This document shows, one piece after another, positions 28,461 through 32,886 of a stretch of DNA of 62,580 nucleotides. Position numbers and translations under genes: made by a program. The DNA is taken from assembly GCA_018712545.1 (NCBI GenBank), contig DVGV01000020.1:1-62580 (forward strand), written 5' to 3'. The number at the start of each line of letters is the position of its first letter. The stretch's first letter is position 1. Below the pieces are notes generated by a model that saw nothing but the letters and a program-made list of their open reading frames with translations, had not been told where the DNA came from and made no database searches. This DNA comes from Candidatus Coprenecus merdigallinarum (lineage in GTDB: Bacteria; Bacteroidota; Bacteroidia; Bacteroidales; UBA932).

Positions 28461-29836
28461 GACAGATGGAGAACCGGTTCCGCGGGCTGGACAGCCACCC
28501 TCCCCGCCCCCCGAAACTCTTCGTGCTGGACACCAATGTGATCCTCCACGACAGCAGGTGCATCTTCAACTTCCAGGACAATGACATCTACATCCCGGTG
28601 AGTGTCATCGAGGAACTGGACAAGTTCAAGAAGGGGGACGACAACCTCGGGTTCAACGCCAGGGCCTTCGTACGCGCCCTGGACAAAATATCGGACAACA
28701 CCCTCTTCGACCGGGGCATCAGCCTCGGCAAGGACCGCGGCCACATCAAGATAGAGATGGGCCACGGCTATACAGGCCAGATACGCGACTCGCTCATCGA
28801 CGACATCCCCGACCACCGTATCATCGCCACCGCCGTCTGGCTCAGGGACAACAATCCCGACCGCAAGGTAATCCTGGTGACCAAGGACCTGAACATGAGG
28901 CTCAAGGCCAAGGCTCTCGGCCTCATGGCCCAGGACTATCTCTCCGACAAGGTGCAGGAGGAACGGGTCGTCAAGACCGAGAAGGAGGTGCTCACGGTCC
29001 GCAACATGAAGGATGATTTCATCCGGAAGATAAATGAATCGCCGGAAGGAGTCCCCTTCGCCCAGGTCGGCATCCGCCGCAGACCGGCGCCCAACCAGTA
29101 CTACAAGATATACGACAGTTCCAAAAGCCTTACCCTGGCCCGCTACGACGACCGGGACAAGACCATCGTCAGAGTACGGCCGCAGACCGCCTACGGCATC
29201 ACTCCCCGCAACGACGAGCAGACCTTAGCTATGGACGCGGTCATGAATCCGGACATCAAGCTGATAGCCCTCACAGGCAGGGCCGGTACCGGAAAGACCC
29301 TCATAGCCCTGGCCGGAGCCCTTGCGCAGTCCGGCAACTACGGGCAGATACTCCTCTCCCGCCCCGTTATCCCGCTCAAGAACCAGGAACTCGGCTTCCT
29401 GCCCGGCTCGGTGAACGACAAGATAGGCCCTTACATGCTGCCCCTGTTCGACAACCTGGACGTCATCAAGAGCTGCTTCTCGTCCACCAGTAAGGAAGTC
29501 GCCAAGATCGAGGATATGCTCCGTCGCGAGAAACTGATAATCAACCCTCTGGCCTATATCCGCGGCCGCAGCCTCGGCAACGTCTTCTTCATCGTGGACG
29601 AGTCCCAGAACCTCACTCCGCACGAGGTCAAGACCATCATCACCCGTGCCGGAGAAGGCACTAAGATAGTCTTCACCGGAGACATCTACCAGATAGACCA
29701 GCCCTATCTGGACTTCTACTCCAACGGCCTTACCCACCTTTGCGACAAGTTCTTCGGCCAGAGTGTCTTCGCACACATCAATATGGTGCGGGGCGAGCGC
29801 AGCCAACTCTCGGAGCTTGCCGGCAAATTGCTGTAA
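28442..29836 (+). CDS. PIN-domain PhoH family ATPase
   Basis: A 464-residue cytoplasmic protein. The N-terminal PIN nuclease-like domain (about 24-170) has [12 protein letters not shown] with acidic Asp30, [11 protein letters not shown] and later acidic residues. The C-terminal PhoH ATPase (about 240-464) has the Walker A GRAGTGKT (Lys285), [18 protein letters not shown], Walker [15 protein letters not shown] and [12 protein letters not shown]. PhoH2-type PIN-PhoH proteins are RNA helicase/ribonucleases, usually linked to toxin-antitoxin or RNA turnover. The ATG overlaps purL by 19 bases; a second ATG at 28466 is possible. Confidence 0.92.
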
Positions 29837-29880
29837 TTCTTGCCAGAACGGCCGGAATTATGGCACACATCTATTGGTCC

Positions 29881-30039
29881 TCAGGCTGTTATAAGATTTG
29901 TAGAAGCATGCCACCCGCGGCCTGTTAGCGGGAGGGACCCGCCCTGAGTATCATCGAGTTACGAAGTAACGAGCTGATACTCACGGTGGGAGGGATAGCG
30001 CCGTAGGCGCGTACTTCTACAAATCTTATAACAGCCTGA
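29881..30039. repeat. 159-bp palindromic structured element with perfect 26-bp inverted ends
   Basis: The ends 29881-29906 and 30014-30039 are perfect 26-base inverted repeats (outer TCAGGCTGTTATAAG, inner TTTGTAGAAG). The 107-base GC-rich core holds three hairpins: CCCGC/GCGGG (914-918 with 928-932 of 29xxx), TGAGTATCA/TGATACTCA (29945-29953 with 29975-29983) topped by GTTAC-GAA-GTAAC (29958-29970), and GCGCC-GTA-GGCGC (29998-30010). GGGAGGGA occurs twice, before the second and third hairpins. Folded, it is a cloverleaf on a long stem. No frame and no TAnnTTTG box is inside. It resembles a MITE, a REP-type element or a structured RNA. It lies between phoH and the ppdK promoter. Confidence 0.85.
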
Positions 30040-30106
30040 TGACAGATACAATATTCATCCTCCTAAATATTTTTAACTGTCTGATAGGGAATTTGTGAAA
30101 AATCGT
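30040..30106. other. Short noncoding stretch between the palindrome and the ppdK promoter
   Basis: AT-rich, no hairpin or frame. TTTG at 30092-30095 is only 11 bases before the ppdK -7 box. The 44 bases between the phoH stop and the palindrome (29837-29880) likewise show nothing but a weak CCGGC-rich patch. Confidence 0.4.
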
Positions 30107-30114
30107 TATTTTTG
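30107..30114 (+). promoter_or_regulatory. -7 box of ppdK
   Basis: TATTTTTG, leaving a leader of about 50 bases before the ATG at 30169. Confidence 0.5.
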
Positions 30115-30168
30115 CGACTTAATAGTTTACGGTCTTTGACTCAAACCAATATTTTATTTTTTATATCT

Positions 30169-32886
30169 ATGTCAAACAAAAGAGTTTATTTCTTTGGAGG
30201 AAAAGAGGCCGAAGGAAACGGTTCTATGAGAAACCTCTTGGGCGGTAAAGGCGCGAACCTCGCCGAAATGTGCACGCTCGGAATGCCCGTACCCGCGGGA
30301 TTCACCATCACCACCGAATGCTGCACGGAGTATTACAATCTGGGATGCAAGTATCCCGCAGAACTCGAAAAGGAAGTCAATGACGCTCTCTCACGCGCAG
30401 AAAGCATGATGGGCCGCAAGTTCGGGGACAAGGACAATCCTCTCCTCGTATCCTGCCGCTCCGGCGCACGCTCATCCATGCCCGGCATGATGGAGACCGT
30501 ACTCAACATAGGTCTTTGCTCCGCGACCATACCCGGTATGATCGCCAAGACCGGCAATCCCCGATTCGTCTACGACGCATACCGCCGTCTGATCATGATG
30601 TACTCGGACGTGGTAATGGAAAAGGCCGAGGGCATCGAGCCCGCAGAGGGTCAGGGCATCAGGGTCCAGCTCGACAGGATGCTGGGCGACCTGAAGGCCA
30701 AAAAAGGCTACAAGAGCGACACAGACCTGACCGAGGAAGACCTCAAGCAGCTCTGCGCCGACTTTAAGGTACGTGTAAAACAGGTACTTGGAAAAGAGTT
30801 CCCCGACAACGCATACGAGCAGCTCTGGGGCGGTATCGGAGCCGTGTTCAAATCCTGGAACGGCAAGCGTGCCATCGCCTACCGCCGCATCGAGGGCATA
30901 CCCGATGACTGGGGAACAGCCGTGAACGTACAGGCCATGGTATTCGGCAACATGGGAGACAACTCCGCTACAGGCGTGGCCTTCTCCCGTAACCCCGCTA
31001 CAGGTGAGAACAAGTTCTACGGAGAGTGGCTCATCAACGCCCAGGGCGAGGATGTCGTAGCCGGTATCCGCACCCCCAACCCCCTGAATGAGGCCACCAA
31101 GAACGAGCACAACCGCCATCTGGCATCCCTTGAGACAGCCATGCCTGATGTTTACAAGGAACTGGACGAGATACAGAATCATCTCGAGAACCACTTCCAC
31201 GACATGCAGGACATCGAGTTCACCATCCAGGACGGCAAGCTCTGGATGCTCCAGTGCCGCGTCGGCAAGAGGACAGGTCTGGCAGCCCTCAATATGGCCA
31301 TGGACATGCTCCATGAGGGACTTATCGATGAAAAGACAGCCGTCATGAGAGTGGCCCCCGCCCAGCTCGACGAGCTCCTCCACCCTATCCTGAACCCCGC
31401 TGCAGAGAAGAAGGCCACCGTCATCGCCCAGGGTCTGCCCGCAGGTCCCGGCGGCTCGGTCGGTAAAATCGTCTTCACAGCCGAGGATGCCGTAGCCGCT
31501 GCAGAGCGCAAGGAGAAAGTGATTCTCGTCCGTGAGGAGACCAATCCCGAGGACGTGGAGGGCATGCGTGCCGCCGACGGTCTGCTCACAGCCCGCGGAG
31601 GTATGACCTCGCATGCGGCTCTGGTAGCCCGCGGATGGGGCAAGTGCTGCATCGTAGGCTGCGATGCCCTGCATATTGACCTCGAGGCCAAGACACTCAC
31701 CATCAACGGCAAGACCTACCGTGAAGGAGATGTATTCTCGCTCAACGGATCCAAGGGCTTCGTTTACGACGTAGCTGTGGAGACCATGGACGCATCGGAG
31801 AATCCCCGTTTCGTAGAATACATGACCCTCGTAGACAAATACCGCCGGCTCGGTGTGCGCACCAACGCCGACACTCCCGAGGACGCAGCCCGCGCCCTTT
31901 CCTTCGGAGCCGAGGGCATCGGCCTCTTCAGGATCGAGCACATGTTCTACGGAGCCAACTCCGAGGAGCCTCTGTCCAAGCTGCGCAAGATGATTCTCTC
32001 CACTACCGAAGAAGAGAGAATAGCCGCACTGGCAGAACTCGAGCCTTACATCAAGCAGGCAGTCAAGGCCACCATGAAGGTAATGGACGGCAAGCCGGTA
32101 ACTTTCCGTCTGCTCGATCCCCCTCTCCATGAATTCGTTCCCCAGACTCCCGACAAGGAGGCTGAGCTGGCCAAGGAGCTTGGAGTATCAGTCAGCGACA
32201 TACAGAAGCGCGGAGAGAGCCTGCACGAGGTCAATCCCATGATGGGACACCGCGGAGTGCGTCTGGGCATCACCTACCCCGAGATCAGCGAGACCCAGTT
32301 CCGTGCCATCTTCGAGGCCACTGCCGAGCTCATCAAGGAGGGCCTCAACCCCAGACCCGAAATCATGATACCCGTAACCATCATCGTACGCGAGCTGGAC
32401 TTCGAGAAGAAGATCTGCGACCGCGTACACGACGAGGTGGAGAAAGCTACAGGCGTGACCATCAACTATCTCTACGGTACCATGATCGAGATACCCAGGG
32501 CAGCCCTGCTGGCCAACTTCATGGCTAAGACCGCCCAGTTCTTCTCATTCGGAACCAACGACCTGACCCAGATGACCTTCGGATTCTCCCGCGATGACAT
32601 CGGAGCCTTCATGGGCGACTATCTGGAGAACAAGCTCCTCGATGCGGATCCGTTCCAGACCATCGACGTGGAGTCTGTCGGCAAACTTCTCGAAATAGGT
32701 GTACATGGCGGCCGCAGCACCAACCCCAACCTCAAGGTAGGTATCTGCGGAGAGCACGGCGGAGACCCCGCTTCAGTGGAATTCTGCCACAAGATCGGCA
32801 TGAACTACGTTTCCTGCTCGCCTTTCAGAGTTCCCATCGCCCGTCTCGCAGCGGCGCAGGCAGCCATCAAGAACGGAGAGAAATAG
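30169..32886 (+). CDS. ppdK: Pyruvate, phosphate dikinase
   Basis: A 905-residue enzyme interconverting pyruvate, ATP and phosphate with PEP, AMP and pyrophosphate; in fermentative Bacteroidales it serves glycolysis/gluconeogenesis. The N-terminal ATP-grasp domain (GGKGANLAEMCTLGMPVPAGFTITTECC, SCRSGARSSMPGMMETVLNIG) is followed by the phosphohistidine domain with His482 in GGMTSHAALVARGWGK. The C-terminal PEP-binding barrel has HRGVRLGITYPEI, SFGTNDLTQMTFGFSRDD and GICGEHGGDP. Length is standard. ATG 30169 starts the conserved N-terminus; an upstream frame from 30112 overlaps the -7 box. A strong terminator follows. Confidence 0.97.
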   Translation: MSNKRVYFFGGKEAEGNGSMRNLLGGKGANLAEMCTLGMPVPAGFTITTECCTEYYNLGCKYPAELEKEVNDALSRAESMMGRKFGDKDNPLLVSCRSGARSSMPGMMETVLNIGLCSATIPGMIAKTGNPRFVYDAYRRLIMMYSDVVMEKAEGIEPAEGQGIRVQLDRMLGDLKAKKGYKSDTDLTEEDLKQLCADFKVRVKQVLGKEFPDNAYEQLWGGIGAVFKSWNGKRAIAYRRIEGIPDDWGTAVNVQAMVFGNMGDNSATGVAFSRNPATGENKFYGEWLINAQGEDVVAGIRTPNPLNEATKNEHNRHLASLETAMPDVYKELDEIQNHLENHFHDMQDIEFTIQDGKLWMLQCRVGKRTGLAALNMAMDMLHEGLIDEKTAVMRVAPAQLDELLHPILNPAAEKKATVIAQGLPAGPGGSVGKIVFTAEDAVAAAERKEKVILVREETNPEDVEGMRAADGLLTARGGMTSHAALVARGWGKCCIVGCDALHIDLEAKTLTINGKTYREGDVFSLNGSKGFVYDVAVETMDASENPRFVEYMTLVDKYRRLGVRTNADTPEDAARALSFGAEGIGLFRIEHMFYGANSEEPLSKLRKMILSTTEEERIAALAELEPYIKQAVKATMKVMDGKPVTFRLLDPPLHEFVPQTPDKEAELAKELGVSVSDIQKRGESLHEVNPMMGHRGVRLGITYPEISETQFRAIFEATAELIKEGLNPRPEIMIPVTIIVRELDFEKKICDRVHDEVEKATGVTINYLYGTMIEIPRAALLANFMAKTAQFFSFGTNDLTQMTFGFSRDDIGAFMGDYLENKLLDADPFQTIDVESVGKLLEIGVHGGRSTNPNLKVGICGEHGGDPASVEFCHKIGMNYVSCSPFRVPIARLAAAQAAIKNGEK

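Follow-up and report, generated by a model that had tools for sequence, protein, structure and literature searches.

A palindrome between phoH and ppdK of Candidatus Coprenecus as a probable member of a mobile palindromic repeat family of Bacteroidales

Position and structure of the element

The palindrome between phoH and ppdK of Candidatus Coprenecus merdigallinarum is probably (we put the probability at about 0.7) a copy of a family of non-autonomous mobile palindromic repeats present in Candidatus Coprenecus, a genus of the Bacteroidales placed in the Rikenellaceae by the NCBI taxonomy, and in related Bacteroidales. Support for mobility comes from relatives with empty sites, from arms that travel with the core in the genome G068 and from two genera in which the element is inserted in frame in rmlB. 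The family is apparently an undescribed, small, non-coding element of gut Bacteroidales, and we found no prior description of it among the open-licence papers searched. Throughout, the window is the whole stretch of 62,580 nucleotides that was analysed; G000 is the label of its own genome, other G numbers are genomes of relatives and L numbers are loci.

The element is a palindrome of 159 bases (29881-30039) with perfect inverted arms of 26 bp around a core of 107 bp (Table 1). Folding of 29870-30050 (181 bases) gives -98 kcal/mol, compared with a mean of -52.7 for shuffled sequences (z -10.2, 0/200 shuffles). Upstream lies phoH (PF02562), which ends at 29836, and downstream lies ppdK, the gene of pyruvate phosphate dikinase (PF01326, PF02896), with its likely ATG at 30169. 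A scan of 29800-30200 for terminator-like and promoter-like sites returned one of each, the former where phoH ends (29821-29833) and the latter on the minus strand (30148-30175), both near the number expected by chance. It found no T run at the element and, for sigma-70-type promoters, the kind within its reach, no promoter-like site within the window copy. The first-pass annotation of this DNA had described perfect 26-base inverted ends, a duplicated inner motif and a place between these two genes with neither a terminator T run nor an internal promoter, all of which our analysis confirmed; of its three hairpins the second and third were recovered, while for the first an H-type pseudoknot is the better description. 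Covariance model R1 matched the element at 29885-30035 with 176.5 bits and detected no second copy inside the window.

Table 1. Features of the element in the window.
Feature	Coordinates	Strand	Evidence or remark
Left arm, 26 bp	29881..29906	+	26/26 complementary to 30014-30039
Conserved core, 107 bp	29907..30013	+	Up to 98% identity with cores that other species have at unrelated sites
H-type pseudoknot	29909..29932	+	Covariation over 16 distinct combinations, 0/10,000 shuffles
Pseudoknot stems	S1 29909-29912/29919-29922; S2 29914-29918/29928-29932	+	S1 has 3/4 pairs in the window's type
First GGGAGGGA	29930..29937	+	Sequence; mostly kept in alignment A1
Hairpin 2, CCCGCC/GGTGGG	29938..29990	+	Nested hairpin tipped C-GAA-G (29962-29966)
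Second GGGAGGGA	29988..29995	+	Sequence; overlaps TGGGAGGG (29987-29994), invariant in 30/30 aligned copies
Hairpin 3, GCGCC-GTA-GGCGC	29998..30010	+	Absent from the three type C copies in alignment A1
Right arm, 26 bp	30014..30039	+	Complementary to left arm; three paired changes when compared with G010 at the orthologous site

A second palindrome was observed directly after phoH in G001, G006 and G010. The one in G010 (L034 1333-1457) has perfect arms of 19 bp and an 87-bp loop with GGTCATTTACGCCCAGTAAACTCC, and the window has just a short stretch (29839-29863) at this place.

Distribution of the family

A BLAST search with a 113-bp core found the element in 12 of the 19 genomes of the genus. 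A covariance model built from 30 copies extended this to at least 18/19 Candidatus Coprenecus genomes, to at least 72 of 199 genomes and at least 11 of 25 genera of the family, and gave at least ten matches in the window's own genome; all these counts are lower bounds, with up to 15 candidates scored per genome under stricter filters. Weaker matches need reading, because the model includes a generic stem. Among 40 matches that were fetched, 34 had at least 18 paired arm bases (L212, L214, L215, L226, L231 and L232 did not), and the GGGAGG core motif was present in nearly all, L231 and L232 being badly bounded there. Some copies are old, since the same site is filled in species whose flanks are just 74-81% identical, and current activity is therefore not implied by the presence of a copy. 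At L045 and L046 the element is nearly identical in G001 and G017 even though its flanks are 84-90% identical, a likeness suggesting that transfer between species may have occurred.

Conserved core

The core has a recurring layout, in which a pseudoknot is followed by a hairpin, with GGGAGGG after each, and often by a third hairpin. The pseudoknot consists of four pairs in S1, one base (L1), five pairs in S2, no gap and a loop (L3) of 3-6 bases. A screen of 100 element entries, some elements being entered twice, matched 37 distinct segments, of which three misplaced ones were dropped (L221, and L241 twice); the 34 that were kept show 16 distinct S1/S2 combinations, and five entries gave no match (L015, L099, L134, L231, L232). 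S1 was found fully paired as AGCC/GGCT, TGCC/GGCA, AACC/GGTT, AATC/GATT, AGTC/GACT, GGCC/GGCC and CTGC/GCAG, and with one mismatch as TGCC/GGCC and GGCC/GACC, while S2 was found as CCCGC, CCCTC, CCCGT, CCCAT and CCCAC with matching partners. Over the 16 combinations, Watson-Crick pairs fill 61/64 cells of S1 and 80/80 of S2, which was equalled by 0/10,000 shuffles, and G-T pairs fill 0/144. To our knowledge, a covarying pseudoknot is unusual in a mobile repeat. Type D copies (L099, L134) have a plain hairpin in the place of the pseudoknot, and they end in GGGGAGGA where the A1 copies have TGGGAGGG after the second hairpin.

Alignment A1 comprises 30 of the 35 copies, leaving out L031, L038, L044, L099 and L134 for their asymmetric arms or their shortened or other cores. 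In the consensus fold, 23 of 34 pairs have changed on both sides, and hairpin 2 has a conserved G-T pair in 25/30 copies. Hairpin tips of the form C-GNA-G are frequent (56/79 for hairpin 2 and 35/73 for hairpin 3, counted over related copies). GNA loops are unusually stable in DNA hairpins, and these tips, together with the near absence of G-T pairs, hint at a fold in DNA, an idea that fits poorly with the conserved G-T pair of hairpin 2. A G-quadruplex formed by the four GGG runs was also considered as a possible structure.

Palindromic arms

Perfect arms are present in 26 of the 35 distinct copies, in a screen that itself demanded a paired arm; L014 and L025, whose arms are lost or damaged, and L016, with imperfect arms, are outside the 35. 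Ungapped comparison of 17 long type A copies gave an outer-arm identity of 0.32 for the 19 pairs from different sites with cores at least 95% identical, against 0.78 for the 20 same-site pairs. Over the outer 13 arm positions, Watson-Crick pairing is 0.91 within a copy and 0.41 between arms of different copies, and G-T pairs occupy 11 of 621 ungapped arm cells. The ungapped numbers of paired and unpaired changes between orthologous arms are 3/0 at phoH, 6/0 at mntP (G000-G017), 7/1 at l10 (G010-G017), 4/0, 4/0 and 3/0 at l13, and 6/2 at l20 (G010-G016), amounting to 33 paired against 3 unpaired over the 7 of 18 comparisons with any paired change, some of which share species; the other 11 comparisons have no paired and 0-2 unpaired changes. 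The first-pass annotation had held that a single copy with neither homologues in relatives nor compensatory changes would speak against both a mobile family and a conserved RNA, and we found several copies, homologues and compensatory changes.

The near-chance identity of outer arms between Coprenecus sites had suggested that the arms derive purely from the site, a view overturned by two observations. In the G068 subfamily, 9 of the 14 copies fetched have the inner 23 bp of the arm in common (0.90), with cores at 0.975, and the Coprenecus arms at nine different sites preserve a weak similarity (0/500 shuffles). Because arms travel with the core in G068 and retain this similarity in Coprenecus, they appear to belong to the moving unit and then to drift fast in a paired way. 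Selection on the core is another possible origin of conserved cores with drifting arms, a point against the reading as a mobile repeat. At L045, ten bases of the right arm, CTCTACAGCT, repeat in reverse complement the end of the neighbouring gene, AGCTGTAGAG, an end that G006 and G007 have without the element; the bases that follow in this arm have no counterpart in these two genomes. Arms may thus extend by copying host flank too, with a possible local contribution at L045.

Core inversion and template switching

Core orientation was compared at nine orthologous sites in a common gene orientation, leaving out the atpE-like site, which is occupied in several genomes (the labels mntP, recD, bcp and atpE are names given by eye). 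The core is reversed between species at five of the nine, mntP (three copies against three), l10, l13, l20 and L038, and is constant at phoH, recD, l45 and bcp. At L038 the asymmetric bases of the inner arms flip together with the core, which speaks for inversion and against a second insertion. In the part of PMC8604942 concerned, template switching between inverted repeats is described as homogenising arms and inverting spacers, those spacers being a few bases long, and in that of PMC8794818 as creating and maintaining hairpins with multibase compensatory changes. The paired arm changes and the core flips both fit polymerase template switching; recombination between the arms would be an alternative cause of the flips.

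We propose that a trans-acting enzyme would recognise the single-stranded core, probably as DNA during replication, and would insert arms and core together, the tolerated sites lying mostly just behind genes. After insertion, template switching at replication would copy one arm onto the other and invert the spacer, with the result that the arm sequence would drift quickly while the palindrome persists. The nine orthologous sites offer a natural experiment in which two processes, the paired change of arms and the inversion of spacers by template switching, can be followed. The family also gives a warning, in that compensatory changes in a long stem, commonly accepted as proof of selection on RNA, can arise from copying at the DNA level.

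Insertion sites and empty sites

The copies sit mostly behind genes: judged by eye from the flanks, with open reading frames listed for three, six sites are convergent, five co-directional and one divergent. Element-free relatives, a comparison that the first-pass annotation had recommended, were found at six sites, namely phoH, mntP, bcp, L021, L045 and L038. At L038, the cleanest of them, G000, G006, G007 and G010 have one common uninterrupted junction. No target duplication is common to both filled copies of this site (G001 alone has CGA on both sides), which weighs against a mobile repeat, and the empty state may itself be a deletion; target duplication was looked at in L038 only, the other element-free sites being too diverged to judge. 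Sites with one arm (G006 at bcp; G000 and G002 at L021) could likewise be deletions rather than pre-insertion states, which leaves the polarity of insertion unproven there. At L021, loss by deletion is shown by G001 and G010, which retain a core scar and one arm.

In-frame insertion in rmlB

In G068, the gene of a dTDP-glucose 4,6-dehydratase (rmlB) contains the element and still reads uninterrupted through 422 residues, and relatives in the PDB skip the insert, as for instance 1g1a, which matches residues 5-122 and 173-422. A different copy occupies the same place of rmlB in G028, which belongs to another genus, and the peptides encoded by the two inserts differ; G048, of the same genus as G028, has a decayed copy at this place. 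Another palindrome is found at this place in G175, and G125 and G115 (L265, L277) have short in-frame hairpins in the same loop. These hairpins resemble REPs of the CGTC type as they are described in the part of PMC3733652 used for the comparison. Among 23 rmlB rows, which come from 19 of the 20 genomes searched, inserts occur in these six genomes, and the stretch at the insert place measures 42 residues in G082 and G195 and 32-35 in the remaining 15 rows. The CGTC label of the G125 and G115 hairpins partly reflects what we take to be the features of this type. That different palindromes have been inserted in frame in one loop of rmlB points to a role of palindromic repeats in protein change beyond Rickettsia as well.

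Candidate movers and alternative explanations

The explanation that survives best beside that of a mobile repeat, and that overlaps it, is REP- or MITE-type DNA moved by a host RAYT or another Y1 HUH transposase; we regard it as unlikely. A RAYT-moved REP had been among the initial proposals, and what speaks for it are PF01797 matches in 15 of the 19 genus genomes (14 above the cut-off), one orthologous RAYT locus, beside an atpE-like gene, with a type C or D element no more than 0.5 kb away, the frequent C-GNA-G tips, and a GTAG overlapping the beginning of S1 in 7 of the 34 pseudoknot segments, although not in the window's type. No tetranucleotide foot (GTAG or CGTC) common to the cores was seen by eye, however, and of 30 RAYT loci scanned for type A motifs the six examined (L088, L099, L100, L101, L107, L114) carry other repeats, so that RAYT as the mover gains weak support. 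Two RAYT genes of the genus precede tandem hairpins of another kind, GAAGGTGCCG...CGGCACCTTC (L107 590-880; L100 2440-2860), with a spacing of 106 bp in G010. The part of PMC6006769 concerned mentions atypical secondary structures next to Bacteroidetes RAYT genes of subclass 2.6, and these might conceivably be linked to the present family.

For the reading as a mobile repeat, it is a point against that no transposase or donor was identified among the genes examined. Close pairs of elements flank hipA-like genes (by eye; L239 and L240 in G016 and G012) or part of rmlB, and the genes between close copies included no recognised transposase or other mobile gene, in an inspection short of a systematic search for a parent element. 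Searches of plasmids and phages with the window element gave no matches.

Somewhat less probable is a structured RNA, either a 3'-UTR or a small RNA, with a selected pseudoknot and hairpins and a long protective stem, as the first-pass annotation had also envisaged. The strong covariation of the core, including a pseudoknot with a one-base L1 and an L3 of 3-6 bases, the consensus pairs changed on both sides, the G-T pair of hairpin 2 and the location of copies behind genes agree with it. A cis-acting RNA is argued against by the core flips, through which one site holds the core in opposite orientations in different species, and by the rarity of G-T pairs in the arms and their absence from the pseudoknot. 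The insertion in a coding gene and the lack of a sigma-70-type promoter-like site inside the window copy are further points against an RNA, as is the search of Rfam, which gave no convincing match: none in 1001 bases of the window and, at ten other loci, only sub-threshold matches to mir-B6 on both strands of one element.

We consider it improbable that the palindrome evolved in place as a bidirectional terminator or a stabiliser of mRNA 3' ends; the position behind genes, convergent pairs included, and the apparent irrelevance of orientation would suit such a role, but no T run was found at the element, nearly identical cores occur at unrelated sites, close relatives differ in presence and absence, and rmlB carries an insertion. 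Least probable of all is insertion of the core into long palindromes that existed before, with the arms as the target, which would explain unrelated arms around nearly identical cores and the two orientations, but is opposed by the G068 copies, which carry the same arms to different sites, and by a survey of six sites, where none of 46 stretches that lack the element or keep one arm had a perfect stem exceeding 7 bp at a loop length of up to 60 (a shorter stretch being measured at phoH of G017). This candidate had already been unsupported on 20 hand-picked stretches; a terminator-like hairpin at the element-free phoH site of G017, with a perfect outer stem of 8 bp by eye, is in its favour and escaped both surveys.

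Comparison with known systems

The family may be read as behaving most like the Rickettsia palindromic elements (RPE). RPE are, in the part of PMC10969869 consulted, short palindromic repeats of about 150 bp in many copies, some of them in frame in protein genes, a trait found here in rmlB of G068 and G028 and, decayed, of G048. They differ in phylum and in encoding a conserved peptide according to the same passage, whereas the rmlB peptides of G068 and G028 are different.

Like REP and REPIN sequences associated with RAYTs, the element is palindromic, multi-copy and mostly extragenic, and Y1 proteins are present in the genus; it differs in having a long pseudoknot core, in the lack of a common GTAG or CGTC foot and in the other repeats found at RAYT loci. 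A REPIN keeps its two end palindromes and has a variable middle, in contrast to the Coprenecus element, in which the middle is conserved and the ends are variable. RepRanger names three Bacteroidota genomes in the passage concerned (PMC12306157). The family compared here is one of Bacteroidales, an order to which, presumably, none of those three genomes belongs.

With bacterial MITEs, the element shares a short non-coding sequence, inverted ends and presence or absence between relatives. The initial proposal of a non-autonomous mobile element is broadly supported by the many copies, the empty sites and the insertion into a coding gene; a textbook MITE is not matched, since the ends are very different between Coprenecus sites (0.32) though shared in the G068 subfamily (0.90), the filled L038 copies have no target duplication in common and no parent element was found. 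Small inversions at chloroplast 3' hairpins resemble the core flips in that a spacer inverts between hairpin arms, and they are not presented as dispersed repeats in the part of PMC3123225 concerned.

A more far-reaching idea, which we hold to be doubtful, is that of a new class of mobile elements with a pseudoknot signal in single-stranded DNA, an enzyme that would build or carry the palindromic arms, template switching that would perfect the arms and flip the cores, and a related half with the GGGAGGG hairpin spread across phyla. An interspersed proteobacterial GGGAGAGGG repeat, for which we know of no name, has a 34-base stretch of the core, AGAGGGAGGGGCCCGCCGCGAAGCGGTGGGAGGG, exact in three Azospirillum plasmid records and 91-97% identical in 12 more, and 33 of these 34 bases are exact in one IMG/VR contig. 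It differs from the Coprenecus element in that a plain hairpin replaces the pseudoknot (in the three Azospirillum records examined), and no long perfect arms were seen in four loci. The Azospirillum-type form is present in 52 IMG/VR stretches (L285-L336), the neighbours of which revealed no mover. In these stretches, GGGAGAGGGAGGGGCCC...GGGAGGGTGAGGG repeats occur up to six times per contig, and the recurrent neighbours resemble, by eye, genes of alphaproteobacterial phages or gene transfer agents (GTA).
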